Assembly (NCBI RefSeq): GCF_007859945.1
Contig: NZ_SJPQ01000001.1
Coordinates: 1,638,489 to 1,702,488 of the forward strand
DNA: 64,000 bases
Direction: 5' to 3'
From: Pseudobythopirellula maris
GTDB lineage: Bacteria; Planctomycetota; Planctomycetia; Pirellulales; Lacipirellulaceae
Made by a program: the position numbers and the translations under genes. Shown in pieces: positions 12,802 to 28,371 of this stretch; position 1 is the stretch's first letter; every line of letters begins with the position of its first letter. Under the pieces are notes generated by a model, which ran no database searches, was not told where the DNA came from, and saw only the letters and a program-made list of their open reading frames with translations.

Positions 12802-13263
12802 ATGCGCATGGTTCCCACCCAGCTACGCCGTCCCGTTAAGAACCGTCCCACCCAAAGCTCCGAAGTCCGGGTCCCCCACATCCTGTGCGTGGACGACGAT
12901 CCCGACATCCAAACGACCATCCAGATGCGCCTGCGCGTGTACGACGTGGCGGTCGACCACGCCTACTACGGCATGCAGGGCGTGGTCGAGGCGGCCAAGT
13001 CGCGTCCCGACATGATCCTGATGGACATCGCCATGCCCAACGGCAACGGCGAGTACTTGATCGATTACCTGAAGAGCAATCCCGAGACACGCGACATCCC
13101 CGTGGTGGTTCTCACCGGCATGCGCGACCCCCAACTGAAGCGGCGGATGCTCGCGGCCGGGGCCGAGGGCTACCTCAGCAAACCGGTGCTGTTCGACGAT
13201 CTGGTCCACGAGATCCGTCAGCACGTTGACTTGCGACTCTGCGAAGAGGGAGACGAAATCTAG
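12802..13263 (+). CDS. Single-domain response regulator (receiver only)
   Basis: A 153-residue CheY-like receiver after a 25-residue basic lead. The acidic cluster VDDDPD, phospho-acceptor Asp in LMDIAMPNGNG, switch Thr in VLTG and Lys in YLSKPV are all present, so it should accept phosphate. No output domain exists, so it presumably relays phosphate or acts by protein contact. The open frame extends to 12628, but the purine-rich AGGAG at 12794-12798 fixes the start at 12802 or 12808. The next gene begins one base after this stop, so the two are almost certainly cotranscribed. Confidence 0.9.
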   Translation: MRMVPTQLRRPVKNRPTQSSEVRVPHILCVDDDPDIQTTIQMRLRVYDVAVDHAYYGMQGVVEAAKSRPDMILMDIAMPNGNGEYLIDYLKSNPETRDIPVVVLTGMRDPQLKRRMLAAGAEGYLSKPVLFDDLVHEIRQHVDLRLCEEGDEI

Positions 13264-13264
13264 C

Positions 13265-14854
13265 ATGTGCCGCAACGAGAACATAAGGGTCCTGCTCCTC
13301 GAGGACGATCACGACTTCTACCGTCTGATCGCCCACCAGCTGAACAACCATCGCCGGCGGTTCGAGCTGGACCGAGTGGAGACCCTCGCCGAGGCGATCG
13401 ACAAGCTCAAGTTGGGTGGCTACCACCTCGTGCTCAGCGACCTGTCGGTCCCCGACAGCTCGGGATTCAACACGATCGAGAGCCTGCGTCAGGTTTGCGC
13501 GCTCACGCCGATCATCGTGTTCACCGGGCTCGACGACGACGCCATCGAGCAGCAACTGGTCGAGGCGGGCGCCCAGGACTACCTGGTCAAGGGCGAGTCG
13601 AACGCTTCCTCGTTGGCGCGGTCGATCTTCCACGCGGTCCAACGCCAAGAGGCGAAGAACCGCATCACGGGTCTGGTCGCGCAGCTGCAAGAAAGCCAGG
13701 AACTGCTCAGCGAGCAGACCATGCTCTTGCAGAAGAAGAACCGCCGCCTCAAGAAGCTCTACAAAACGGCCCAGGAGTTTGTCGACAACGTGTCGCACGA
13801 CCTGCGGACACCCCTCACCGTGATCAAGGACTACATGAACCTGATCCGCGAGGGGATGGTGGGCGAGGTGAACGAGCGGCAGCAGGAGATGCTCGGCAAG
13901 GCGTGCGTGCGGGCCGACGACCTGAACCACATGGTCGACGACCTGCTGGACGTGAGCAAGCTCGACTCGGGGCTGCTGGGCGCGTGGCGCCGCCCCGTCG
14001 CTCTGGCCAAGATCTTGGACCACGCCGCCGCCACGCTCAAGCAGCGGGCCGAGGTGCGGGGAACGGCCCTCGAGGTCGACTGCGAGGCCGACCTGCCGCT
14101 GGCGTTCTGCGACGCCGAGAAGGCGGAGCGAGTGCTCACCAACCTAGCGGTCAACGCCATCAAGTATTCCGCCCCCGGCAGCCGGGTGCGGCTCTGGGCC
14201 CGTTTCGACGCGGATCGCGACGAGATACTCGTGGGGGTCACCGACAACGGCCCCGGCATCCACGAGGACGCCTTGCAAGAGATCTTCGAGCGGTTCAACC
14301 AGTCGGGCGGGTCGACCGACAGCAGCGGCAAGAGCTACGGCCTGGGGCTCAGCATCGCTCAGCGCTTCTGCCGGATGAACCTCGGCGTGATCGACGTCGA
14401 GAGCAAGGCCGGCGAGGGCAGCACGTTCAAGTTCACGCTCCCCACGGCCGAGCCTACCGGGGTGTTGCAACGTTGGCTCGACCTGTCGGGCGTGGTCGGC
14501 TCGCCGATCCGGCTGATCGAAATCGTGGCGCCGCCCGAGGCCGCCGACCAGTTTGCCGAGTACGACGGGTTCCTGCACGGTCAATTGCGTCGCGACGATC
14601 TGCTGGTCGAGAACGGGCCGGGGCGGTGGCTGTTCGTCATCGGCGTGGCGCCGAGCGAGGCGGAACTCTGGTTCGAGCGCGCGCAGAAGGACTTCAAACG
14701 CATGAACCGCAACCGATTCGCGGGCCCCCTTGCGCCGTATCGCACCGAGACGATCCGCACGTGGGAGCCCTCGTCCGGGCGGGAGACGATCCTCGAAGAC
14801 TTCCGCGACGCGCTGTGCGGCGCCGCGGCCGAAGCCCCCTCCCTCAGCGTGTGA
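13265..14854 (+). CDS. Receiver-histidine kinase hybrid with degenerate GGDEF-like tail
   Basis: 529 residues and no membrane segment, so cytoplasmic. Order: receiver (Asp59 in LSDLSVPD, Lys109 in YLVKG), coiled coil (about 125-170), HisKA with His178 in NVSHDLRTP, HATPase (N box NLAVNAIKY, DNGPGI, YGLGLSIA) and a C-terminal region of about 120 residues (about 410-529). That tail resembles a GGDEF fold in pattern (EYDGFLHGQLRRDDLLVEN then GPGRW where GGDEF would be), but the active-site residues are gone; this assignment is inference. An input receiver on a kinase suggests control by the receiver encoded just upstream. ATG 13265 follows the previous stop by one base. Confidence 0.88.
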   Translation: MCRNENIRVLLLEDDHDFYRLIAHQLNNHRRRFELDRVETLAEAIDKLKLGGYHLVLSDLSVPDSSGFNTIESLRQVCALTPIIVFTGLDDDAIEQQLVEAGAQDYLVKGESNASSLARSIFHAVQRQEAKNRITGLVAQLQESQELLSEQTMLLQKKNRRLKKLYKTAQEFVDNVSHDLRTPLTVIKDYMNLIREGMVGEVNERQQEMLGKACVRADDLNHMVDDLLDVSKLDSGLLGAWRRPVALAKILDHAAATLKQRAEVRGTALEVDCEADLPLAFCDAEKAERVLTNLAVNAIKYSAPGSRVRLWARFDADRDEILVGVTDNGPGIHEDALQEIFERFNQSGGSTDSSGKSYGLGLSIAQRFCRMNLGVIDVESKAGEGSTFKFTLPTAEPTGVLQRWLDLSGVVGSPIRLIEIVAPPEAADQFAEYDGFLHGQLRRDDLLVENGPGRWLFVIGVAPSEAELWFERAQKDFKRMNRNRFAGPLAPYRTETIRTWEPSSGRETILEDFRDALCGAAAEAPSLSV

Positions 14855-14865
14855 AGGAAGACCAC

Positions 14866-15234
14866 ATGACCGCTACAAAACGCGTGCTGGTCGTCGACGA
14901 CGAGGAGGACATCCGCGAGGGCGTGAGCATGTGGCTCGACGCGGCGGGCTTCGAGTCGATCCAGGCCTGCGACGGCTGTGAGGGCCTCGACCTCGCCGCC
15001 TCGGAACGCCCCTCGGCGATCTTCCTCGACATGATGATGCCCAACAAGAACGGGATCGAGACCCTGACCGACCTGCGTCGATCCGAGGCGACCGTTGACA
15101 TCCCGGTGGTGATGCTGTCGGCAAGCCTCCGCGACGAGCAGAAGGCGCTCGACGCGGGTGCTAGGTTCTTCGTTCACAAACCGTACCACGGCCCGGTGCT
15201 TATCGAGGCCCTCCGGGCGGCGCTCGACGAGTGA
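14866..15234 (+). CDS. CheY-like response regulator
   Basis: A 122-residue receiver only. It has the acidic pair in VVDDEED, the phospho-acceptor in FLDMMMPNKNG, the switch residue Ser in MLSAS and the conserved Lys-Pro in VHKPY. AAGGA lies 7 bases before ATG 14866, and the start is 11 bases after the kinase stop, so it is in the same operon. It is a plausible phosphate target of that kinase, inferred from order. Confidence 0.92.
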   Translation: MTATKRVLVVDDEEDIREGVSMWLDAAGFESIQACDGCEGLDLAASERPSAIFLDMMMPNKNGIETLTDLRRSEATVDIPVVMLSASLRDEQKALDAGARFFVHKPYHGPVLIEALRAALDE

Positions 15235-15301
15235 GTCGCCCCGCTCGCCTCGCTCCCCCTTCAAGCTGCAGTACTTTATCCGCAACCCTGATTGCCGCGC
15301 C

Positions 15302-16273
15302 ATGACCAAGAAGATCCTCATCGCCGAAGACGACCCCGACCTGCTGCGGCTGCTGGTCCGCCGTTGCCAATCGCTGCGGCACGAGGTCGATTCGGCCGAC
15401 GACGCCATCCTCGCCCTTTGCAAGCTCGAGGGGACACTCCCCGACTTGGCCATACTCGACGTCGACATGCCGGGCGGCAACGGGCTGAGCGTTTGTGAGA
15501 TGATGTCGACCCACGAGCAGATGCGCGCGATCCCAACTATCATGCTCACCGGCAACAGCGACCCCGACACGATCCGCCGCTGCCACTCGCTCGGCGCCTA
15601 CTACGTGCAGAAGTCGGTCGACGTTTGGAGCCGCCTCGAGCCGCTGCTGCGCGAGTTGCTGGGCGAAGGAACGGCTCCGGCCGAAGAGGCCGGCGAGGTC
15701 AAAGAGGTCAGCGAGACCGAACAAGCCGTGGAGGCCGCCCTGCACTCGGGAGAAGGTTGTCTCTACGCGGTGCAAACCGACCCCAACGCGGAGTCGGACA
15801 CGATCATCGACGCCGTGTTCGCGGCCCTCGGGGTCGAGGGTGGCGACCAGGCGTTCGAAAGCGAGCCGGACTCGGCCGAGCCCGCCGACGATCGCCCGTG
15901 GGTCTTGTCGGTCGAAGACGACGACGACATCGCGCTCGCGCTCAAGCTCCGACTCGCCGAGTCGGGCTACAACATGGTCCGCGCAACGGCCGGCGTTGAG
16001 GGCTACCGCAAGGCGTTCATGACGGCGCCCAGCGCGATCCTGCTCGACTACGAGTTGCCCAACGGCAATGGCGACTACGTGCTGCGGCGCCTGAAGGAAT
16101 CGCCCGCCACGAGCGACATCCCGGTGATCGTTCTCACCGGCCGACGCGAGGCGACGATCGAGCGGCAGATGCGCAACCTCGGCGCCGACGAGTTCCTCAC
16201 CAAGCCGTTCGATTGGCGGCGGCTCCGCGAGTCGCTCGAACGACTGGTCGATACGAACGCGGTGGGCGCCTGA
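15302..16273 (+). CDS. Double-receiver response regulator
   Basis: 323 residues with two complete receivers separated by an acidic, probably flexible linker (about 125-205). The first has AEDDPD, acceptor Asp in ILDVDMPGGNG and Lys in VQKS; the second has VEDDDD, acceptor in LLDYELPNGNG and Lys in LTKPF. There is no DNA-binding or enzymatic output. Tandem receivers of this kind often act as phosphate sinks or relays. The second is more like the receiver encoded at 12802 (PNGNGxY) than like the first. ATG 15302 begins the conserved strand; the frame is open further upstream. A terminator follows 28 bases after the stop and closes the operon. Confidence 0.9.
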   Translation: MTKKILIAEDDPDLLRLLVRRCQSLRHEVDSADDAILALCKLEGTLPDLAILDVDMPGGNGLSVCEMMSTHEQMRAIPTIMLTGNSDPDTIRRCHSLGAYYVQKSVDVWSRLEPLLRELLGEGTAPAEEAGEVKEVSETEQAVEAALHSGEGCLYAVQTDPNAESDTIIDAVFAALGVEGGDQAFESEPDSAEPADDRPWVLSVEDDDDIALALKLRLAESGYNMVRATAGVEGYRKAFMTAPSAILLDYELPNGNGDYVLRRLKESPATSDIPVIVLTGRREATIERQMRNLGADEFLTKPFDWRRLRESLERLVDTNAVGA

Positions 16274-16301: not shown

Positions 16302-16344
16302 AACCGCCCCCTTTCACGGGACTTTACGTGGGAGGGGGCGGTTT
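16302..16344 (+). terminator. Terminator closing the receiver operon
   Basis: AACCGCCCCCT pairs with AGGGGGCGGTT across a loop of about 20 bases, with TTTA after the stem. It lies 28 bases downstream of the double-receiver stop. The loop is long and the T-run short, so efficiency is uncertain. Confidence 0.7.
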
Positions 16345-16540: not shown

Positions 16541-18346
16541 GTGATGTGTCTGCAAGAAGCAGCAACGTTAGCTCCGACATCCGCGGGCAAGCGGACCGCC
16601 GCGGTCCACTTGCTCCTCGCGGGGATTGTTCTGGGCGGGTGCGTTTGCCACGCCGTGGCGGCTCCGATTGCCAGCGATACCGCGGCGTGCTGCTCGCCGG
16701 AAGGCGCCATCCCTTGCTTTCTTGTCGGCTCGCCCGCCACGCAAGAGCAGACCGCAGGCTCGGCCTTTGGCTGGATCTTCGACACCTCGCCTTACCCGCC
16801 GTGTTGGCGCTGCGGTCAGTGGACTGCGGCGATAGGCTGGTTGCACATCGTATCCGACTTGCTGATTTGGCTCGCCTACATGGCGATCCCAGTCGGCCTG
16901 GCGTTCTATGCGGGCATGCTAAGGAAGGGCCCTTATCGTGGCATACTTTGTCTGTTCTGCGCGTTCATTCTTAGCTGTGGCGTCACCCATCTGATGGAAG
17001 TGGTCATCTTCTGGTGGCCCGCCTACGGGCTGGCCGGAGTCTTGAAGGCGATGACCGCAGTCGTTTCGATCGGCACCGTGATCGCAATGGCCCGCATGCT
17101 GCCTTTTGCTCTCACGTTCCGCAGCCCCAAACAACTCGAAGAAGAGGTGTCGCAGAGGACCCGCGAACTCGAGCTCTCCGAACGCCGAGCCATGAGCGTG
17201 ATCGAGTCGTCGCCCGCGGCCATGGTGATGGTTGACGAGGCGGGATGCATCGTGCTGGTCAACGAGGCCGCCGAGCGGCTGTTCGGCTTTCAGCGCGAAG
17301 AACTCCTAGGCCGATTGATCGAGTCTTTGCTGCCAGAGCGAAACCAGCTGGTCCACCCGGCGGATCGCCAGGCCTTCTTCAACGCCCGCGAGGCGCGGCG
17401 CATGGGTATGGGACGCGATCTCTATGTCCGCCGCGCCGATGGGGTCGAAGTGCCGGTCGAGGTAGGAATCTCACCCATCGAAACACACGACGGCATGTTT
17501 GCCCTCAGCGCGATCGTCGACATGAGCGAACGCAAGGGAATGGAGTGCAAACTCAAACAGGGCGCCGAAGAGCTCGACAAAGCCAACCAAGCGTTGCGGC
17601 AGAGCAATGTCGACCTCGAGCAGTTCGCCTACGCGGTGTCGCACGACCTGCAAGAGCCACTGCGCAAGATCGCTTCGTACAATCAGATCGTGCTGGACGA
17701 CTACGGTGATCGCCTCGACGACGCCGGCCGAGAGTTCCTTCAGATCAGCATCGAGAGCTCGCAGCGGCTCAAGGGAATGATCAAGGACCTGCTCGCGTTC
17801 TCACGGATCACGACGAAAGGCGCCGCCCTCAAATCGATCGACGCCGAGGAAGCGACCGACACCGCCCTGCGGAGGCTCGAGATCGCCATCGAAGAGAGCA
17901 ACGCGCAAGTGTCATGCGACCCCATGCCGCACGTGCTCGCCGATGCCGCTCAACTCGAACGCCTGCTGCAGAACCTTGTAGGCAACGCCCTGAAATACCG
18001 CGGCGAGCAGACGCCCAAGGTCCACATCGGCTGCCGCAGGCTCGGTTCGATGGCCGAATTCTCGATCAGCGACAACGGCATCGGCATCGACCCCAAAAAC
18101 TACTCGCGGGTTTTCGGTGTCTTCCAGCGACTCCACAAGCACAACGAGTACGAGGGGACCGGCATCGGTTTGGCGCTCTGCAAGCGCATCGTCGAGCGTT
18201 TCGGCGGCAGCATCTCGCTCGAATCCGTTTTGGGCGAAGGGAGCACGTTCCGTTTCACCCTGCCGCTCGCCGATGAAGGATGGTGTGAACCCAGCGACGC
18301 TTCCCCCAACGCTGGTGACGAGCGTCTCGTCTCCGCAGCGCCCTGA
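16541..18346 (+). CDS. Ethylene-receptor-like PAS sensor histidine kinase
   Basis: Order: signal-like N-terminus (about 18-41), a three-helix membrane domain (about 98-190), coiled coil, PAS (about 215-335), HisKA with His368 in AVSHDLQEPLRK and HATPase ending near 585. The membrane domain matches the plant ETR1 sensor: Asp106, Tyr113, Ile116, Pro117, Ile143, Cys146 and His150 keep exactly the ETR1 spacing of D25, Y32, I35, P36, I62, C65 and H69, including the copper ligands in CGVTH. Binding of ethylene or another small ligand through Cu(I) is therefore likely but unproven. The SHDLQEP box is of the bacteriophytochrome type. GTG 16541 or ATG 16544 can start. The partner may be one of the receivers upstream. 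Confidence 0.9.
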   Translation: MMCLQEAATLAPTSAGKRTAAVHLLLAGIVLGGCVCHAVAAPIASDTAACCSPEGAIPCFLVGSPATQEQTAGSAFGWIFDTSPYPPCWRCGQWTAAIGWLHIVSDLLIWLAYMAIPVGLAFYAGMLRKGPYRGILCLFCAFILSCGVTHLMEVVIFWWPAYGLAGVLKAMTAVVSIGTVIAMARMLPFALTFRSPKQLEEEVSQRTRELELSERRAMSVIESSPAAMVMVDEAGCIVLVNEAAERLFGFQREELLGRLIESLLPERNQLVHPADRQAFFNAREARRMGMGRDLYVRRADGVEVPVEVGISPIETHDGMFALSAIVDMSERKGMECKLKQGAEELDKANQALRQSNVDLEQFAYAVSHDLQEPLRKIASYNQIVLDDYGDRLDDAGREFLQISIESSQRLKGMIKDLLAFSRITTKGAALKSIDAEEATDTALRRLEIAIEESNAQVSCDPMPHVLADAAQLERLLQNLVGNALKYRGEQTPKVHIGCRRLGSMAEFSISDNGIGIDPKNYSRVFGVFQRLHKHNEYEGTGIGLALCKRIVERFGGSISLESVLGEGSTFRFTLPLADEGWCEPSDASPNAGDERLVSAAP

Positions 18347-18388: not shown

Positions 18389-20335
18389 TTAGCGGTTATT
18401 CGCGGAGCCCGGAAGCGCCTCGCCGGCGCCCACCAAATAAACGCTCGGCCGCGGCGGCGCCGTCATGCCGTCGCCCAAGTAGAAGCTCGGGTGGCACGGC
18501 TTGTTGTAAACGACGTTCTGCCAAGCGATCCCCAAGCGGTACTGCGGGTCGTGCAGCAGCGTGACCAATCGCAAGTCGGTGGGGATCGTCGTCGTGTAAA
18601 GCCGGAGCGACTTGCGATCGGGCGCCACCATGAGGATCTCTTCGCGCCAGTCGCCCAGCAGGTCGCCCACGATGGCGGGCCCGCGGCCGGCGCCGATTGC
18701 GTCGCACTCGTAGATCGTTTGCTCTTCGCTCTTCTCCCAGTCCCACTTCATCACGCGGGTCGGCTGGGGATCGCGGAACCGACGCCAGCGCTTAGAGCCC
18801 GGGCGGCCGCACGAGAGCAGCTCGCGCAACGGGTCGGCGTCCCACCACAGGCACCAGTCGTTGTTCCGCGGCGCCGGGCCGAGCGTCTCGCCCTGCTCGC
18901 CGCGCAGGCCCCCCGGGCCGCCCCACGCCTCGTAGCCGCGGTGGGTGGGGTCGATGTCGGCCGCCATTCCGCCTCCCACATCCACGGTTGGACTGTGGCT
19001 CCAAAGGATTTCGCCCGTACGGGCGTCGCGCATCGCGGCGCCGGGGGTCTGGAACAGCTCGGCGTCGTCCTCGTTCTCCTGAACCGTGAAGACTTCCATG
19101 CCCGGCCGGTCGGGGTACATGTCCGTGATGTGCATCGAATCGCCGTGCCTCAGGCCCGTGCTGTAGAGCCCCTTGCCGTCGTCATCGACGACCATCGCCT
19201 GGTAGACGACCTCGTCGCGGCCGTCGCCGTCCACGTCGGCCACCGAGAGCGAGTGCCCCCCCATGCCGGCGAACGGCGAGGCGTCGTCGTACGGCGGTTG
19301 GCTCGACCCGGTGTCGAAGACCCACCGCTGCGTCAGCTTGCCGTCGCGCCAGTCCCAGGCGGCCATGACGATCCGGCCGTAGACGCCGCGGCACATCACG
19401 ACGCTCGGCCGCTCGCCGTCGAGGTACGCCACGCACGCCAGGAATCGGTCGCAGCGGTTGCCGTAGCTGTCGTTGCCGGCGTTGCCGCCGATGCCGCCCC
19501 AGGCGCCGATCGAGCCGCGTCCGGGGACGTAGTCGACCGTTTCGAGCGCCGCGCCGGTGGCGCCGTCGAACACGGTGAAGTACTCGGGCCCGTCGAGGAT
19601 GCGGCCGTGGCGTTGCGAGCCTTCCTCAAGAGTACGCCAATCTTTGTCGGGGTCGCCGATCGTTTTTCCCTGGCCGTCGACCGTGCCGTCGGCCGTCTTG
19701 CAGGCGACCTCGGCGCGGCCGTCGCCGTCGAGGTCGTAGACCATGAATTGGGTGTAGTGCTCGCCCTCACGGATGTTCTTACCGAGGTTGATCCGCCAAA
19801 GGTGCGTGCCGTCCATCTTGTAGGCGTCGAGCACCGGCTCGCCCGTGACGCCCGCCGAGCCGTTGTCGCGACCCCTCGAAACCTGGTGCAGAACGATGTC
19901 GAGCTCGCCGTCGCCGTCGAGGTCGGCGACCGAGGCGTCGCCCGGTCGGTAGCCTTCGATCGACTCGATCGGGATCTCGAGGCGCTGGTCGCTCCAGACC
20001 GCCACGCGTTTGCTGGCCGGGCCCTCCGCGCCGTCGACGACCGGCTTGAGGAAGTAGGCCAAGGGGCTCGACGTGTCGGCCCCGGCGTCGACGAAGTTCG
20101 TCGCCCCGGTGAGCGGATCGCTGTTGGCCAGCACCGGCTCGCCATCGGCCGTCACGCGGTAAAGGTTGAACGCGATCCCCTCGGGGTCGACGCCGAACAA
20201 CCGCCAGCCGACGTAGACGCCCCCCTCCTGCTTCACGGCGACGAGGCCACGGCTGAGGTTCTCCATCTGCCGCTGGGCCGGGGCGACTGACGCAAGCATA
20301 GCCGTGGCGAGGAGAGCAAGAAGACGGAGTCGCAT
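18389..20335 (-). CDS. Rhamnogalacturonan lyase, PL11 type
   Basis: About 648 residues with a Sec signal (LLALLATAMLASVAPA), a small N-terminal beta domain (YVGWRLFGVDPEGIAFNLYR) and an eight-bladed propeller with Ca-binding D-x-D-x-D-G loops (DLDGDGELD, DLDGDGRAE, DVDGDGRDE), ending in LHDPQYRLGIAWQNVVYNKPCHPSFYLG-type sequence, the PL11 hallmark. PL11 enzymes cut rhamnogalacturonan I by beta-elimination. Unlike its two neighbours it has no LEPR-XLL, dockerin or extra domain, so it is probably periplasmic or freely secreted. ATG 20335 is chosen at the signal peptide; a TTG at 20371 would add 12 residues. Confidence 0.9.
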   Translation of the reverse strand: MRLRLLALLATAMLASVAPAQRQMENLSRGLVAVKQEGGVYVGWRLFGVDPEGIAFNLYRVTADGEPVLANSDPLTGATNFVDAGADTSSPLAYFLKPVVDGAEGPASKRVAVWSDQRLEIPIESIEGYRPGDASVADLDGDGELDIVLHQVSRGRDNGSAGVTGEPVLDAYKMDGTHLWRINLGKNIREGEHYTQFMVYDLDGDGRAEVACKTADGTVDGQGKTIGDPDKDWRTLEEGSQRHGRILDGPEYFTVFDGATGAALETVDYVPGRGSIGAWGGIGGNAGNDSYGNRCDRFLACVAYLDGERPSVVMCRGVYGRIVMAAWDWRDGKLTQRWVFDTGSSQPPYDDASPFAGMGGHSLSVADVDGDGRDEVVYQAMVVDDDGKGLYSTGLRHGDSMHITDMYPDRPGMEVFTVQENEDDAELFQTPGAAMRDARTGEILWSHSPTVDVGGGMAADIDPTHRGYEAWGGPGGLRGEQGETLGPAPRNNDWCLWWDADPLRELLSCGRPGSKRWRRFRDPQPTRVMKWDWEKSEEQTIYECDAIGAGRGPAIVGDLLGDWREEILMVAPDRKSLRLYTTTIPTDLRLVTLLHDPQYRLGIAWQNVVYNKPCHPSFYLGDGMTAPPRPSVYLVGAGEALPGSANNR

Positions 20336-20389
20336 GGCGGGGCTTATCGGTTGGAAGGAAGAAGGTCGCAAGTCGGACGGGTAGACTTC

Positions 20390-20412
20390 AGCCCCCGGCG
20401 ATGCCGGGGGCT
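20390..20412. repeat. Short palindrome between sulfatase and PL11 genes
   Basis: AGCCCCCGGC / GCCGGGGGCT is a perfect 10-bp inverted repeat with a 3-base centre. On the minus strand, the direction of transcription here, no T-run follows, so it is called a REP-like palindrome and not an intrinsic terminator. Confidence 0.6.
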
Positions 20413-20423
20413 GGTTTTGCTAG

Positions 20424-21899
20424 TTAAGGCGCCGCGGCGGGCGTGTGGCCGGCGACGTGCTCTCGGGCGATCTTCGAGAGCCGCCCGACCGTGTCGGCGT
20501 GCTCCGGGTCATTGACCAGGTTCACCAACTCGTGCGGATCGCTGACCGGGTCGGTCAGCATCGCCCCCGGGCCGCGGCCGTAAAACTCGGCGTAGCGCCA
20601 CCGCTCGGTCCGCACGCACACACCGGTGATGTGCTCGCCATCTCCGCTCCAGACGGTGAACGCGGGGCTGTCGTCCTCGTGCGTGGGGTCATCGAGCAGC
20701 GTAGCGAGGCTCTCGCCCTCCAGGCCCGCTGGGCGGTCCACACCGCAGAGGTCGCACAGCGTCGGGTAGAGATCGATGGTTTCGACCACTCGTGGGCAAG
20801 GCGTTCCGTTGCCCGCCTTGCGCGGGTCGCGGATGAAGAGCGGCACGCGGGCGCCCTGCTCCCACAGCGAGCCCGCCTTCGACCATTTGCCCTTCTCGCC
20901 GAGCTGGTAGCCGTGGTCGCCCCAGAACACGACGATCGTGTTCTCGCCCAGCCCGAGCTCGTCGAGCGTGTCGAGCACCCGGCCGGCGTTCCAGTCCATC
21001 CACGCGGTCGAGGCGAGGTACGCCCGGGTCATCATCTTAGCCTCTTCCTCAGAAGCCTCGCGACCGATGAACAGGTCCGCGTTGCGGGGGCGGATCGAAC
21101 CGGCCGGGAAGCCCTCCGGCACGGTCGGACGCGCGGCGAAGTCAATCGGCAGCTCGATCTCGCCCAAGTCCCACATGTCGAAGAACCGCTTCGGCGCCGC
21201 CAGCGGGCTGTGCGGCTTGCTGAACCCACAGGCGAGGAAGAACGGCTGTTGCTGCTCGTCGCTCGCTGCGCTGCGCAACATCTCGATGGCGCGCGTGGCG
21301 ACGCGGTGGTCGCCGGTCTTCTCTTCGTCGCCTTCCAGCACGATCCAGCGGTCGCTGCGCTGCTGCTTGGTGAGTCGCCGGCCGCCGGCGGCGCGGTCGG
21401 GCCGGATCGAGGGGGGCGGCCGTCGCGTGGCGCCCTCGCCGAAGTAGCGCGCCGAGCCCCCTTCGTCCCACGCCTCCACGTCGTCGATGCCGCCGTGGAA
21501 GATCTTGCCCGCGCTGAGCGTGTGGTAGCCGTTCTGGCGGAACCAGCGCGGCAGGCTCACCGCGTCGGGCCGCGTGGCGCCGAACCAGGTGCGGTTGCCG
21601 AGCACACCGACCGTGGTGGGGTAAAGCCCCGTGAGCATCGAGCTGCGTGACGGGTTGCACAGCGGGTATTGGCAGTACGCCCGATCGAAGCGCACCGAGC
21701 TCTCGGCGAGCTCGTCGAGTCGCGGCGTCGAGGCGCGCTCCACGCCGTAGCAGCCCATCTCGTTGCGCAGGTCGTCGGAGATGATGAACAACACGTTCAT
21801 CGGCGCCGGCGTGTCGGCCGCGGCGTCGCCCGGTCGGGTCAGCGCCCACGCGGCGAGCAACAGACTGAGCACGACTACCGTACGACGCGATTTCATCAC
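20424..21899 (-). CDS. Secreted sulfatase (iduronate-2-sulfatase-like)
   Basis: 491 residues with a Sec signal (about 1-29). The metal-binding ISDDLR and the formylglycine site CNPSR (81-85, within LCNPSRSSMLTG) are intact, so an active type I sulfatase is expected after maturation by a formylglycine-generating enzyme or anaerobic maturase that is not in this window. ACGFSKPHSPL and WGDHGYQLGEKGKWSK are typical of iduronate-2-sulfatase-like members (S1 family). Location between PL11 lyase genes suggests removal of sulfate from the same polysaccharide, which is inference. GTG 21899 is followed at once by ATG 21896; either may initiate. Confidence 0.94.
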   Translation of the reverse strand: MMKSRRTVVVLSLLLAAWALTRPGDAAADTPAPMNVLFIISDDLRNEMGCYGVERASTPRLDELAESSVRFDRAYCQYPLCNPSRSSMLTGLYPTTVGVLGNRTWFGATRPDAVSLPRWFRQNGYHTLSAGKIFHGGIDDVEAWDEGGSARYFGEGATRRPPPSIRPDRAAGGRRLTKQQRSDRWIVLEGDEEKTGDHRVATRAIEMLRSAASDEQQQPFFLACGFSKPHSPLAAPKRFFDMWDLGEIELPIDFAARPTVPEGFPAGSIRPRNADLFIGREASEEEAKMMTRAYLASTAWMDWNAGRVLDTLDELGLGENTIVVFWGDHGYQLGEKGKWSKAGSLWEQGARVPLFIRDPRKAGNGTPCPRVVETIDLYPTLCDLCGVDRPAGLEGESLATLLDDPTHEDDSPAFTVWSGDGEHITGVCVRTERWRYAEFYGRGPGAMLTDPVSDPHELVNLVNDPEHADTVGRLSKIAREHVAGHTPAAAP

Positions 21900-22039
21900 G
21901 TGGTTCCTGAGAGGGTTTCAGAGAAGGCGAGCTCGTGGCGGGCAGGCTTAGTGCGAATCGCACAGATGCGTAGCGTGTGTGGCGGTGTGATTTGGCGTCG
22001 ACAAGGCGAAAACGACGCTACGGCTACCAGTAGTGCGCT

Positions 22040-25000
22040 CTAGTAGAGCTTACGCAGCCAGTCGCCGAGCGTTCTGTCCGCCAGAGCACCGTAGGACGAA
22101 CGATCCAAGGACGAGTCGTCGGCAGCCGTTCGATCCCTGAGTCGGTTCGACGTGGAGTCCGGCAGCAACTTGGCCTCGTCGGCGAGCAGCAGCAAGGCCT
22201 CGTCGTCGGCCGTGGGTGAGAGCGTCTCTGCGGTTGCGGGGCTGGCGTCGCGTGAGTCGTCGAGCGGCTCGGCAACCAGCAGCGCGAAGGCCAAGTCGTT
22301 GGGCGTCTTCGCGGCGGGCTCCTCGGTGGGCTCCTCGATGATGACCGGGGCGGCCGGGGCGGTCAGGGCGGCCGCCGACGCCTGGGCGAACGCGAGCGGC
22401 GGCTCGGCCACCTCGCCAAAGTTGTCGACCCACACCTGGTAGTCGGCCATATCGACCTCGCCGTTGTGGTCGCCATCGGCGGTGAGGTTGGTGATGCTGC
22501 CGAGCGAGTCGCGCCACACGGTGAAGTCGGCGCCGTCGACCACGCCGTTGCCGTTGTAATCGCCCGCGAGCTCGCCGCCGAAGAACAGCGCCGGCCGCGG
22601 CGCCTCGCCCATGCCGGCGCCGATGAAGTAGCTCGGGTGCGGCGGCTGGTTGTAGTAGCCTTGTTGCCAGGCGATCGCCTGGCGGTACATCGAGTCGTGC
22701 ATCAGCGTCGGCAGCCGCATGGTCGAGGGGATCGTTGTCGACCAGATCTCCAGGGCGGTATTGTCCGCTCGGCGCCAGATCACTTCTTCGCGCCAGTCGC
22801 CAAACAGGTCGGCCGACAGCGCGGGGTTCGACTTCGTGCCGTTGTTGCTCGCCAGGCCCGAGGTGCTGTTGATGCCCGAGTTGCCCCATGAAACGAGGTT
22901 CTGACGCCCGGGCTGAGCCCAGTCGTGGCGCCACTTCGAGATTGTCGTGCCGTCCAAGAGCTCACGCAGCGGGTCGGCGTCCCACCAAACGCCGAAGTTG
23001 ATCAGCATGTTCGACGGCATCTCATAGATCGCGCCTTCCTGCACGTTGTAGATCATCCGCGCCCCGCCGTCCGGGTCGGCGGTCGTGGCCCAGAACTCGT
23101 AGCCGGGGTAATTGGGGTCGATGTCGAACGCCGCCCCGCGGCCGACGTCGTTCGTGGCCTGGATGCCGTAGAGCAGCTCGCCGGTCTGGGCGTCGCGGTA
23201 GTCACCGCCCGCGTCGCGGTACTCGCCCACGCTCTCGTGGGGCGAGAAGATTTCGAGGCCCGGGTTGTCGGGGTCCATGTCGGCCACGTGCAGGGCGTCG
23301 CCGTGGCCGCGGCCGGTGCTGTAGAGGCCCGTGCCGTCGTGGTCGACCGCCATCGCGCCCCAGATGATCTCGTCGAAGCCGTCGCCGTCCACGTCGCCCA
23401 CGCTGGCGTTGTGGTTGCCCTGGCCGACGTACTCCTCGTTCACGTCGCTGTCGGTCCCCTCGATCGCGGTGAAGGTCCACCGCTCAGAGAGCTGCCCGTC
23501 TCGCCAGTCCCAGGCGGTCAGCTCGGTCTTCGACTGGTAGATCCCGCCGATAGCGTGGTACAGACCGCGGCCGACCACGAGGCTCGGCCGCTGGCCGTCG
23601 AGGTAGGCGACCACGTGATTGAACGTGGTGGCGCGGTGGCCGTAGTCGTCGCCGTACTCGACGCCGTCGTCCCGCGCGGGGCTGAGCGGCGTATTGGCCA
23701 GCAGCTCTCCGGTGTAGCCGTCGAACACCGACAGGTACTCGGGCCCCGAGGTTACCCAGCCGTCGGGGTTTTGCCACAGCGCGTTGGGGTCGCCGATCAC
23801 CTGGCCATCGCCGGCGACCGTGCCGTCGGATGTGTTCATAATGACTTCGGCGCGGCCGTCGCCGTCGAAGTCGTAGACATTGAACTGGAACGAGCTGGCG
23901 ATCGTTTTGATGTTCGGCCCCACGTCGATCCGCCACAGCCGCGTGCCGTCGAGCTCGTAGGCGTCGAGGTACATGTTCGGAGAGGGCGCCGAGCGGTCTG
24001 CCGGCGAGCCGATCCACTTGAGCACGACCTCGTAGTCGCCGTCGCCGTCGAGGTCGCCGACGCTCGCGTCGTTCGCCGAGTAGACGTGCGTCTCCCCGTC
24101 GGAGGTCGTCATTGGCGGGGGCGCGACGATCGGGATCGTCAGGTGCTGCTCGACCGCCGAGCCGGCCGGCAGCACGTACGGCTCGCTCGCTTCGAGCTCC
24201 ACGCCGTCGACCACGGGCCGAACGCTGTAGGCGACATCGAACACGAGGTTGGCCCCGTAGTCAACGTAGTCGGTCGTTTGTGTGAGCGGAGCGCCGTTCA
24301 CCTTGACCGCCGAGCCGCCACCCGTCGATCGGTACAGGTTGAACGCAACGTCCACCGGGTCGTCGCCCAGCAGGCGCCAACCGACATACACCTCGTTGGT
24401 CGATCGTCGCATCGCGATCACGCCGCGGTCGAGCTTCTCGACCTGGCGGGGCAGCACCACCGGCTCGACGGGGTACGGGTCGGGCCCGGGCTCCTCGGCA
24501 AACTCCAACTCGAGCCGCGGGCGGATCGAGGCGTCGGCGTGCTCACGCGACGCGAAGCCGACGCCACGCACGTTGCCGGCGTCGATGAGCGTGACGAAAG
24601 TCACTAGGCCGTTAGCGTCGGCGCGGTCTTGGAGGAAATCGATCAGGTCGGGGCCCGAGATCGACTGCGGGCCGCCGGTGGCGTTGATCAGCGTCTCCCA
24701 AGTTTCGGCGCCGTTCTCGTAGTTGAAATCAACGAGCCGCACGGGGTCGACGCCGTAGTCGCTCGCCCCCAGGTACTCCGCGCCGGGGCCCGTCTCGGCC
24801 AGGGTCGCCTCGTCCCACGCCTGCGGCGTGTTGCCCGGCAGGTCGGCCAGGCCGAACACGTCGAAACGGTCGAAGTTGATGATGTCGTAGCGTGTGCCGG
24901 GCAGCTTGGAGAGCGACAACTTGGCGTCGGTCAGGTCATCAAGGTCCAGGCCCGACAGGTCGAACCGCACGTAGGCCACGCTATCGCCCGCCGAGCCGTT

Positions 25001-25159
25001 GCGATCGAGCACGTCGAGCACCGGCGCCGAGCCGGCCCCAACGCCCGCGTTGGTGAACGTGTCGGCCGTGGCGGTGAGCGTGACGCCGCTTAGGACCCGG
25101 CGGTCTTCGAGCGGTTCGAAACGGAGCACACGCCCGCGAGGGTGGCGGCGGCTCTTCAT
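22040..25159 (-). CDS. LEPR-XLL rhamnogalacturonan lyase (PL11) with DNRLRE and dockerin-like domains
   Basis: About 1039 residues: LEPR-XLL-type N-terminus (FEPLEDRRVLSG), a DNRLRE/CBM96-like beta domain (about 25-205), a PL11 catalytic propeller with DxDxDG loops (about 225-845), two EF-hand dockerin-like repeats (DYNGNGVVDGADF and DHNGEVDMADY), then an acidic tail with LAFALLV and EALLLLADEA. LEPR-XLL marks surface-exported planctomycete proteins. ATG 25159 is chosen because GGGAG (25168-25172) is 8 bases upstream; the frame opens earlier. It starts 14 bases after its paralogue stops, so the two form an operon. Confidence 0.9.
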   Translation of the reverse strand: MKSRRHPRGRVLRFEPLEDRRVLSGVTLTATADTFTNAGVGAGSAPVLDVLDRNGSAGDSVAYVRFDLSGLDLDDLTDAKLSLSKLPGTRYDIINFDRFDVFGLADLPGNTPQAWDEATLAETGPGAEYLGASDYGVDPVRLVDFNYENGAETWETLINATGGPQSISGPDLIDFLQDRADANGLVTFVTLIDAGNVRGVGFASREHADASIRPRLELEFAEEPGPDPYPVEPVVLPRQVEKLDRGVIAMRRSTNEVYVGWRLLGDDPVDVAFNLYRSTGGGSAVKVNGAPLTQTTDYVDYGANLVFDVAYSVRPVVDGVELEASEPYVLPAGSAVEQHLTIPIVAPPPMTTSDGETHVYSANDASVGDLDGDGDYEVVLKWIGSPADRSAPSPNMYLDAYELDGTRLWRIDVGPNIKTIASSFQFNVYDFDGDGRAEVIMNTSDGTVAGDGQVIGDPNALWQNPDGWVTSGPEYLSVFDGYTGELLANTPLSPARDDGVEYGDDYGHRATTFNHVVAYLDGQRPSLVVGRGLYHAIGGIYQSKTELTAWDWRDGQLSERWTFTAIEGTDSDVNEEYVGQGNHNASVGDVDGDGFDEIIWGAMAVDHDGTGLYSTGRGHGDALHVADMDPDNPGLEIFSPHESVGEYRDAGGDYRDAQTGELLYGIQATNDVGRGAAFDIDPNYPGYEFWATTADPDGGARMIYNVQEGAIYEMPSNMLINFGVWWDADPLRELLDGTTISKWRHDWAQPGRQNLVSWGNSGINSTSGLASNNGTKSNPALSADLFGDWREEVIWRRADNTALEIWSTTIPSTMRLPTLMHDSMYRQAIAWQQGYYNQPPHPSYFIGAGMGEAPRPALFFGGELAGDYNGNGVVDGADFTVWRDSLGSITNLTADGDHNGEVDMADYQVWVDNFGEVAEPPLAFAQASAAALTAPAAPVIIEEPTEEPAAKTPNDLAFALLVAEPLDDSRDASPATAETLSPTADDEALLLLADEAKLLPDSTSNRLRDRTAADDSSLDRSSYGALADRTLGDWLRKLY

Positions 25160-25173
25160 GCGGATCACTCCCG

Positions 25174-28100
25174 TTAGAACGTGCGGAGGGCACGGAGGCC
25201 TCGGCGCCACTGGCCGAAGATCATGTCGCTAGCGTCGTCGGCAGCGTAAGCATTCGCGGCGCTCTCGCCCGCACCAATGGCCTCATCCGACAGGGCGGCG
25301 TGCTCGGCGTCGGCCTCGGAATCGAGGCTGCGTGACGCCAACAGCAGCAGCGAATCGTCGGCGACAACCGTGGCGGCTTCGATCGCGTCGAGGGAGCTAT
25401 CAGCCGGCGGGTCGTCTTCGACAACGAGCAGGGCGAACGCCAAATCGCCGCTCGCCGCATCGCTCGAGGCCCCGTCGATCGCCTGGGCGGCCGAAGGAGT
25501 TGTGGTGAACTCGGCGGGCGCTGCGGCGACATCGCCAAAGCGTTCGACCCACAGGTCGTAGTCGGCCATCTCAACGATGCCGTTGTGATCGCCGTCGGCC
25601 CGCAGGTCGGTCTCGCTGCCGAGCGAGTCACGCCACACGGTGAAGTCGGCGCCGTCGACCACGCCGTTGCCGTTGTAGTCGCCCGTGAGTTCGCCGCCAA
25701 AGAACAGCAGCGGCTGGGGCGGCGTCTCCATCCCCTCGCCGATCCAAAAGCTCGGGTGCGGCGGCTGGTTGTAGGCCGAGTTCTGTGCGGCGATCGATTG
25801 CCGGTACATCGAGTCGTGCATCAGCGTGGTGAGCCGCGAGTCGGCGGCGATCGTCGTGGTCCAGATCTCGAGGGCCGAGCTGTCGCTGCGACGCCAGATC
25901 ACCTCCTCACGCCAGTCGCCCAAGATGTCGGCCGACAACGCCGGCGTGCTCTTCGTACCGTTGTTGCTCGACAGGCCCGCCGTGCTGTTGATGCCGCTCT
26001 TGTCGTAAGCCACGTAATTCGAGCGACCGGGATTCATCCAGTCGGAGATCGTGGTGCCGTCGAGCAACTCGCGCGACAGGTCGCCGTCCCACCAGACGGC
26101 GAAGTTCACGCTCACATTGCCGTACTCGTACAACGCCAGGCCAGAGACGTTGTAGATGTAGCGGGTACCCTCGTTCGTCGTGCCCCAGAACTCGTAGCCC
26201 TCGTGGTTGGGGTCGATGTCGGCGGCCACGCCGCGGCCGACGTCGCTGTCGACCGCCGAGGGGATCTGGAAGATCAGCTCGCCGGTCGCCGCGTCGCGAA
26301 GCTCGCCGCCTGCATTGCGGCCCTGGCTCTGGAAGGCATTGCTCGACTCGTGGACCATGAAGACCTCGAGGCCAGGCCGCGAGGGGTCCATGTCCGAGAG
26401 GTGCAGCGCGTCGCCGTGGCCCAGCTCCGTGGCGTAAAGCCCCGTGCCGTCGTGGTCGATGACCGCAGCGCCGTAGACCACCTCGTCGAAGCCGTCGTTG
26501 TCGGCGTCGCCGATCGTGAGCGAGTGGGCCCCCTCGCCGATGTATTCGCCGTTGCTGCCCCTATTGCCTAAAGTGTCGGCCTTAAAGATCCACCGCTGCG
26601 TGAGCTGACCGTCACGGTAGTCGTACGCGGCCACCTCGTTGCGCGCTTGCCGCCCGCTCTGCGGGCCATAATAGCCGCGGCCGATGACCACGCTCGGCGA
26701 TGTCCCGTCGAAGTAGCCGACACCGGCCGTGAAGCGGTCGACTCGGTTGCCGTATCCATCGCCCCACTCGGCGACGTCGCCCCGCACCGGGTCGAACGCG
26801 ATCGTGTCGAGTTCCTCTCCGGTGAGGCCGTCGAACACGGTGTAGTACTCGGGACCGGTGAGAATGTACCCAGACGAGTTGCGGTAGTCGTCGGTCACTT
26901 GGTCGGCGCCCATCAGCACGGCGTTGCCCAGGCCGTCGATCGTGCCGGGGGCGGTCTTCAAGACGATCTCCGATCGGCCATCGCCGTCGAGATCGTAGAC
27001 GATCGGCTGCGTGTAGTGGGCGCCCGCGCGAATGTTGTGGCCGAGGTCGATCCGCCACAACAGCTCACCCTCGAGCGTGTAGGCGTCGATGTAGACGTTG
27101 CCGGTGTAGCCCGCGTGCGCATTGTCCTTGGCGTTGGACGGGTCCCACTTGAGGATGACCTCGTACTGCCCGTCGCCGTCGAGGTCGCCGACGCTCGCGT
27201 CGTTGGCCGAGTAGGTGTAGGAGCCGTCCGGCGTGGTTCCGCCGGCGGGGATCTGCAGCGGGATCGTCAGGTGCTGCTCGATCGTGGCGTTGGCCCCGAG
27301 CGTGTAGCTCGCGCTGTCTTCCTGCTCGACCCCATCGACGACCGCCCGCACGAAGTACGTGTTGTCGGCGTTCAGGTTGGCCGTGGAGTCTTGGAAGTCG
27401 GTGGTCTGTGTCAGCGGAGCGGCGTTGAGTTTGACGGCCGGGGCGCCGTTCTCGCTGCGGTAGAGGTTGAACGCCACGTCCGCCGGGTCGTCGCCCAGCA
27501 TCCGCCAGCCGACGTAGGCCGCACCGCCCGAGGGTCGCACGGCGACCACGCCGCGGTCGAGCCGCTCCAACTGGCGCGGCGTGACGACCTGCTCGAACGG
27601 CGCCGCCTCGTAGGCGACCGGGCCCTCGGCGGCGTTGGCCGCTAGCTCGCTGGAGCCGACCGCCTCGTCGTACAGCCGCACTTCGTCGATCAGGCCAAAG
27701 AACCCCGGGTCGTTGTTCCACAACGAGCGACCGAAGTAGGCGACCGACTGTGTGATCGAGCCGATGTCGGCGCCGGCGAGCGAAGTGGCTCCGCGCTCGA
27801 CGCCGTCGACATAGAGCCGCAGCGTGTTGGTCGCGTCGTCCACCACACCCGCCACCACGTGCTGCTGGCCGTCGGCGGTCTCGGTCCCCCAGGTAGCCGC
27901 GCGCTCGCCGCTCCCACCGCCGCCGGTCGAAAGCGCTAGCCGCGAGTCGCTGCCGCCCGAGTTGGCCGTGAAGAAGAAGTACGAGTCGCCGTTCGACCCG
28001 TTCTGACTGCCGAAGTCGAACACCCGACTCCAGGTGGTCGAAGAGTCATTGATCGCCGTGGTGAACCAGACCTCGACCGTGAAGCTGCCGCTCGCGGGCA

Positions 28101-28371
28101 GCGCGTTGGTTGGCAAGCTGAGGTACTGCACCTCGCTCGCGTCGCCGCTGTCGGCGCCGTTGTTGTAGAGCACCGCTTGGCCGTTGATCACGCCAACGCC
28201 GTTCTCGAGCGTCATGTCGGCCGAGCCGACCAAGTCGTCGCCCGTGCCGTCGTTGAACGTGTACCAGTGGGTAAGGCTGAGCACGCGGCGCGGCTCGAGC
28301 GTCTCGACATGCAGACGACGCCCTGCGGCATGAGAACGCCGGGCGGAGCGGGAGTGCTTGCGTAGCGGCAT
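25174..28371 (-). CDS. LEPR-XLL rhamnogalacturonan lyase (PL11) with LamG and dockerin-like domains
   Basis: 1065 residues: basic N-terminus with ETLEPRRVLSL (LEPR-XLL), a LamG/concanavalin-like domain (about 33-255) starting HWYTFNDGTGDDLVG, a PL11 propeller (about 265-895) ending LHDSMYRQSIAAQNSAYNQ, one canonical and one weaker dockerin-like EF-hand (DYNGNGVVDGADF, DHNGIVEMADY), and an acidic tail containing LAFALLVVE and DSLLLLA. It is a tandem paralogue of the following gene from the lyase domain onward but with a different N-terminal module. It is the first gene of the minus-strand operon and is divergent from the DUF1559 gene. Confidence 0.9.
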   Translation of the reverse strand: MPLRKHSRSARRSHAAGRRLHVETLEPRRVLSLTHWYTFNDGTGDDLVGSADMTLENGVGVINGQAVLYNNGADSGDASEVQYLSLPTNALPASGSFTVEVWFTTAINDSSTTWSRVFDFGSQNGSNGDSYFFFTANSGGSDSRLALSTGGGGSGERAATWGTETADGQQHVVAGVVDDATNTLRLYVDGVERGATSLAGADIGSITQSVAYFGRSLWNNDPGFFGLIDEVRLYDEAVGSSELAANAAEGPVAYEAAPFEQVVTPRQLERLDRGVVAVRPSGGAAYVGWRMLGDDPADVAFNLYRSENGAPAVKLNAAPLTQTTDFQDSTANLNADNTYFVRAVVDGVEQEDSASYTLGANATIEQHLTIPLQIPAGGTTPDGSYTYSANDASVGDLDGDGQYEVILKWDPSNAKDNAHAGYTGNVYIDAYTLEGELLWRIDLGHNIRAGAHYTQPIVYDLDGDGRSEIVLKTAPGTIDGLGNAVLMGADQVTDDYRNSSGYILTGPEYYTVFDGLTGEELDTIAFDPVRGDVAEWGDGYGNRVDRFTAGVGYFDGTSPSVVIGRGYYGPQSGRQARNEVAAYDYRDGQLTQRWIFKADTLGNRGSNGEYIGEGAHSLTIGDADNDGFDEVVYGAAVIDHDGTGLYATELGHGDALHLSDMDPSRPGLEVFMVHESSNAFQSQGRNAGGELRDAATGELIFQIPSAVDSDVGRGVAADIDPNHEGYEFWGTTNEGTRYIYNVSGLALYEYGNVSVNFAVWWDGDLSRELLDGTTISDWMNPGRSNYVAYDKSGINSTAGLSSNNGTKSTPALSADILGDWREEVIWRRSDSSALEIWTTTIAADSRLTTLMHDSMYRQSIAAQNSAYNQPPHPSFWIGEGMETPPQPLLFFGGELTGDYNGNGVVDGADFTVWRDSLGSETDLRADGDHNGIVEMADYDLWVERFGDVAAAPAEFTTTPSAAQAIDGASSDAASGDLAFALLVVEDDPPADSSLDAIEAATVVADDSLLLLASRSLDSEADAEHAALSDEAIGAGESAANAYAADDASDMIFGQWRRGLRALRTF

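Follow-up and report, generated by a model that had tools for sequence, protein, structure and literature searches.

An ethylene-receptor-type sensor kinase beside a conserved cluster of receiver genes in the planctomycete Pseudobythopirellula maris

The ethylene receptor ETR1 of Arabidopsis combines GAF and kinase domains with a receiver domain, and its signal is relayed by CTR1; in bacteria, ethylene sensing has so far been established in cyanobacteria and Azospirillum. In addition to ethylene, the Synechocystis receptor SynEtr1 (slr1212) perceives UV-A light, and its signal is passed to slr1213 (PMC6682694); the first 130 residues of AzoEtr1 from Azospirillum brasilense bind ethylene in yeast (PMC11819568). 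The ethylene-binding domain (EBD) described here belongs to a different clade, and a search of the literature yielded no report of ethylene binding for any of its members and no discussion of planctomycete EBDs, which reviews may nevertheless list. While ETR1-type receptors as such are already known, the new elements of this study are the placement of the protein in this clade, a conserved putative phosphorelay adjoining it, and the exchange of input domains on a shared kinase.

We analysed a stretch of 64,000 nucleotides of the P. maris genome (hereafter the window; contig NZ_SJPQ01000001.1, positions 1,638,489 to 1,702,488), in which the gene at 16541..18346 (forward strand; 601 aa, with a GTG start at 16541 or an ATG start at 16544) encodes, according to its open reading frame and Pfam matches, an EBD, a PAS domain, and a histidine kinase. 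The EBD (16826..17116, forward strand) matches ETR1_N (PF25487) over aa 98-192 with E=1.4e-30 and 105.9 bits against a cut-off of 27, and its three transmembrane helices (aa 96-126, 133-155, and 162-192) were predicted by AlphaFold2, with 44 homologues, at a pLDDT of ~79-90 and are also visible as hydrophobicity peaks; the model is of a monomer and is silent on copper. An additional hydrophobic helix near the N-terminus (aa 17-39; 16589..16657, forward strand), which shows a hydrophobicity peak at aa 21-39 and was predicted with low confidence over aa 17-39, may be either a signal peptide or a fourth transmembrane helix. The remainder of the protein consists of a PAS domain (aa 220-332; 17198..17536), a HisKA domain with phospho-acceptor His368 (aa 359-424; 17615..17812), and a HATPase_c domain (aa 468-577; 17942..18271), all identified on the forward strand; the N and G boxes of the latter are intact (LVGNALKY, DNGIGI, and GTGIGLAL), and the acceptor histidine and ATPase boxes that define a sensor histidine kinase are thus all present. 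A Pfam search of the protein found no phytochrome-like domain, no credible sequence match to the EBD was found among solved structures in the PDB, no sigma-70-type promoters were found near the gene, and the gap 5' of it contains no known RNA, the sole Rfam match in the window being a tRNA. A candidate copper P-type ATPase is encoded in the same genome, with a score (381 bits) below the cut-off of 397.

The sequence-only reading of this DNA had claimed that seven residues of the ETR1 ethylene site are present at identical spacing and that the Lys in helix 3 is conserved behind a loop three residues shorter; both claims held. D106, Y113, I116, P117, I143, C146, and H150 correspond to ETR1 residues 25, 32, 35, 36, 62, 65, and 69 at an offset of exactly +81, and K169 matches ETR1 Lys91, with 19 residues from His150 to Lys169 as compared to 22 from His69 to Lys91 in ETR1; the letters of the ETR1 sequence are taken to be correct and agree with the residue numbers given in papers. 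Among 124 non-identical EBD relatives, each of Asp, Cys, and His is retained in 123, so that Cys146 and His150, whose loss among orthologues had been named as a reason to abandon the idea of such a site, are both conserved; Tyr and Pro are each kept in 122, the helix-3 position is Lys in 108 and Arg in 15, and the full set of seven residues is identical in 112. Because some relatives came from a contig scan with a five-sequence alignment, whose patterns favour GWLHI[VL]SD and IFW..P.Y, we repeated the count on the 50 EBDs found by profile only, which are free of that bias; the outcome was unchanged (Cys in 50/50; Asp, Tyr, Pro, and His in 49/50 each; all seven residues in 44/50). Retention of these residues in both sets points to strong constraint on the site across the family, and the conservation of Asp, Cys, and His, together with the E-value of the ETR1_N match, argues that the window EBD is not a chance match. 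Homology, residue conservation, and the spacing shared with AzoEtr1 give good support to the proposed coupling of a putative Cu(I)/ethylene-type site to PAS and histidine kinase domains, and the gene can soundly be assigned, on sequence grounds, to the ETR1-type bacterial receptors, with ethylene as the probable ligand.

Several relatives depart from the common pattern. The window protein and its orthologue from a second genus carry Gly at residue 163 (window 17027-17029), which lies in the loop preceding helix 3, while 117/124 relatives have Arg there. Arg replaces the helix-3 Lys in 14 EBDs of Bacteroidota (L063, L089, L090, L092, L095, L100, L102, L104, L105, L110, L117, L118, L128, and L140), unlike the EBD of L121, which retains Lys. 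In Zavarzinella formosa, a second EBD-like frame near an intact EBD gene (L062, 2-2275, reverse strand) has Ile at the position of the copper Cys. A protein of Aeoliella (G397; L040, 1-2013, reverse strand) has a degenerate ETR1_N domain in which Asp, Tyr, Pro, and His are gone while Cys and Lys remain, followed by an intact PAS-PAS-kinase; judged by these residues, its EBD would serve as a natural non-binding control.

ETR1_N is present in 42 of 392 planctomycete genomes and in 8 of the 44 genomes of the family (Lacipirellulaceae). While a scan of genome contigs for EBDs with a single sequence gave no matches, the scan with the five-sequence alignment also located EBDs in Bacteroidota, Verrucomicrobiota, Myxococcota, and one Omnitrophota MAG; a plasmid search found EBDs in Azospirillum, cyanobacteria, Rhizobium, and others, and no EBD was found in phages. 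The P. maris genome itself encodes a second ETR1_N protein (G000:C2:303957-304244; L041, 9780-11831), a hybrid kinase that contains PAS and receiver domains and to which proteins in G432 and G400 are related. When 90 EBDs were placed in a tree, the window EBD fell into a clade of Planctomycetota, Verrucomicrobiota, Bacteroidota, and Myxococcota (support 99/94), outside of which lie the plant, proteobacterial, and most cyanobacterial EBDs; since the tree rests on a short alignment with only three cyanobacteria and an ETR1 sequence taken to be correct, only this main split is trustworthy.

As this clade stands apart from that of the plant and proteobacterial EBDs, its ligand could differ, and the EBD might bind Cu(I) yet sense copper, CO, another alkene, or some other small ligand rather than ethylene. 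Consistent with such a role, ethylene binding has been demonstrated in other clades, copper and ethylene binding share residues, and many carriers appear, as inferred from record titles, to be aquatic or soil bacteria with no obvious ethylene source. However, all seven residues that alanine scanning found to be required for ethylene binding are kept, beyond the Cys and His, and sequence identity to AzoEtr1 is substantial; we thus regard a ligand other than ethylene as unlikely.

The conserved neighbours of the sensor gene are the receiver genes upstream of it, which the sequence-only reading had not mentioned. Four genes on the forward strand encode a single-domain response regulator (12808..13263, in an ORF open from 12628), a receiver-histidine kinase (13265..14854, ORF from 13226), a second single-domain response regulator (14866..15234), and a double-receiver protein (15302..16273, ORF from 15158); none of the four contains a DNA-binding domain. 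At the locus of the orthologue from a second genus (L044), all four genes recur in unchanged order, with 51-62% identity, and the EBD kinase follows directly. In a third genus (G394; L150) the same four genes, again in the same order, are followed by a kinase that is 45% identical over the PAS-histidine kinase part and carries a different multi-helix N-terminus with no ETR1_N; ETR1_N is absent from the entire G394 genome. For the individual genes, identities are 61% (to L044 6208-6636) and 58% (L150) for the first regulator, ~50% to L044, L150, and a further locus, L151, for the receiver-histidine kinase, 62%, 54%, and 61% to L044, L150, and L151, respectively, for the second regulator, and 51-52% to L044 and L150 for the double-receiver protein. 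In a tree of the kinase parts, the window protein pairs with that of L044 (97/88), nested among kinases that have no EBD, and its firmly supported branches require the EBD to have been gained or lost at least six times; the different input in L150 and these changes indicate that the EBD behaves as an exchangeable input. More broadly, response regulators lie within 1.5 kb of 25/80 EBD genes as compared to 1/80 at 4.5-6 kb, counts in which some loci are the same record twice, and the ethylene-sensor form of this receiver cluster was found in two genera only. In the window, the receiver genes and the sensor kinase are separated by a gap of ~270 bases that contains a terminator-like 17-bp hairpin followed by TTTATTG (16302..16343, forward strand; fold -34.6 kcal/mol, z -6.7), which a simple terminator scan did not list as such; because of this gap and its strong hairpin, the receiver genes and the sensor need not be co-transcribed.

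Our preferred reading, which we consider probable, is that the window encodes an ethylene-receptor-type sensor kinase that feeds the upstream receivers (12808-16273), with the EBD as its exchangeable input. Cys146 and His150 would be the residues through which the three transmembrane helices hold Cu(I), with Asp106 and Lys169 in a positioning role, and ethylene would bind at this Cu(I) site; the resulting change would be passed through the helical linker and the PAS domain to His368, from which the phosphoryl group would move to the receiver proteins. Kinase and receivers would thereby pair in a phosphorelay set that has no DNA-binding outputs. The EBD is a swappable module in this scheme, a relative with the same receiver cluster having the same PAS-kinase behind another membrane module. 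The candidate copper ATPase fits this reading; the separate clade, the Gly at residue 163, the gap with its hairpin, and the occurrence of the ethylene-sensor cluster in only two genera weigh against it.

The sequence-only reading had also called ethylene a sensible cue for an organism that breaks down plant or algal pectin; on this view, the sensor would switch on pectin degradation through the adjacent PL11 and sulfatase genes. The neighbouring PL11 rhamnogalacturonan lyase gene (18389..20371, reverse strand) was described as beginning 43 bases past the sensor gene; it lies on the opposite strand, so that its 3' end is 43 bases away and its start ~2 kb away. The reverse-strand run at 18389-28371 comprises three PL11 genes and a sulfatase gene, and the larger two PL11 genes appear, by eye, to have dockerin-like C-terminal segments. 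Beyond the 43-base distance in the window, control of PL11 by the sensor finds some encouragement in co-occurrence, as 14 of the 44 family genomes have strong PL11 matches, 8 have an EBD, and 6 have both (p=0.008; 0.03 among good genomes); this statistic takes no account of genome size, to which the weak co-occurrence may be due, and across the phylum (392 genomes; 17 with strong PL11, 42 with EBD, 3 with both) it is not significant (p=0.27). In addition, a genome of another family (G361) has PL11 ~4 kb from an EBD gene; one such proximity among about ten further EBD genes has an estimated chance of a few per cent, and a loose association between the two may thus exist. However, an ATP-grasp-like gene, hisF, and a Ser/Thr kinase gene intervene in G361, and its EBD sensor is of a different, hybrid type; that kinase (L147, 12813-14889) has a reading frame interrupted within the ATPase domain, either through mutation or through an error of assembly. 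The convergent genes of the window share no transcript, no PL11 gene lies near the orthologue in L044, which shares the kinase and the receiver cluster, five other family members with both genes carry them on separate contigs or >1 Mb apart, and none of the receivers in the cluster contains a DNA-binding domain. In a local protein search, PL11 queries also had matches in L041 and L042/L082, at places where a PL11 profile search reports none; we assume these matches to reflect non-catalytic C-terminal segments. The adjacency of EBD and PL11 genes is hence not a conserved feature, we judged the PL11 gene to lie outside the system, and its control by the sensor is very unlikely.

An alternative in which the EBD survives as a structural relic for anchoring or dimerising the kinase, and the PAS domain senses the signal, is most improbable, since, although the degenerate Aeoliella protein with its intact PAS-kinase indicates that the domain can persist without the site and a PAS domain is present here as well, the window copy retains every site residue, and the columns of Asp, Cys, and His rank with the least variable of the EBD.

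If the clade of the window EBD binds ethylene, Planctomycetota, Verrucomicrobiota, Bacteroidota, and Myxococcota would join the bacteria that sense this gas. Tentatively, these phyla may share an unstudied clade of ethylene sensors whose input is interchangeable between kinases, with ethylene a common cue for free-living polymer degraders far from plant roots, a cue that would here set a receiver-only phosphorelay. Clusters with and without an EBD on the same kinase and receivers represent a natural input-swap experiment, in which the output can be studied with either input.

Among the described receptors, AzoEtr1 offers the most direct comparison; its 525-residue sequence from A. brasilense Sp7 (L167) has Asp35, Cys75, His79, and Lys98, numbered as in PMC11819568. 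AzoEtr1 and the window protein share the EBD-PAS-histidine kinase layout without a receiver, the seven residues and the Lys, with identical spacing of Asp, Cys, His, and Lys, an EBD that is 42.6% identical, and a partner response regulator without an output domain close by; from this layout, spacing, and identity, we infer that the window EBD binds Cu(I) and ethylene. By contrast, the whole proteins are only 28% identical and their EBDs fall into different clades, AzoEtr1 lacks the extra N-terminal hydrophobic helix and has one response regulator downstream where the window has four receiver genes upstream, and ethylene binding has been demonstrated for AzoEtr1, whereas the window EBD is known from its sequence. 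With SynEtr1 and other cyanobacterial receptors, the window protein has in common a bacterial EBD joined to a histidine kinase (PMC6682694), but it contains a PAS domain, and a search for its domains revealed none of phytochrome-like type. Finally, Arabidopsis ETR1 shares the three-helix sensor, the seven binding residues, the helix-3 Lys (Lys91), and a Cys that is conserved ahead of helix 1, while it has three more residues in the loop leading to helix 3 and its EBD belongs to a separate clade of the tree.
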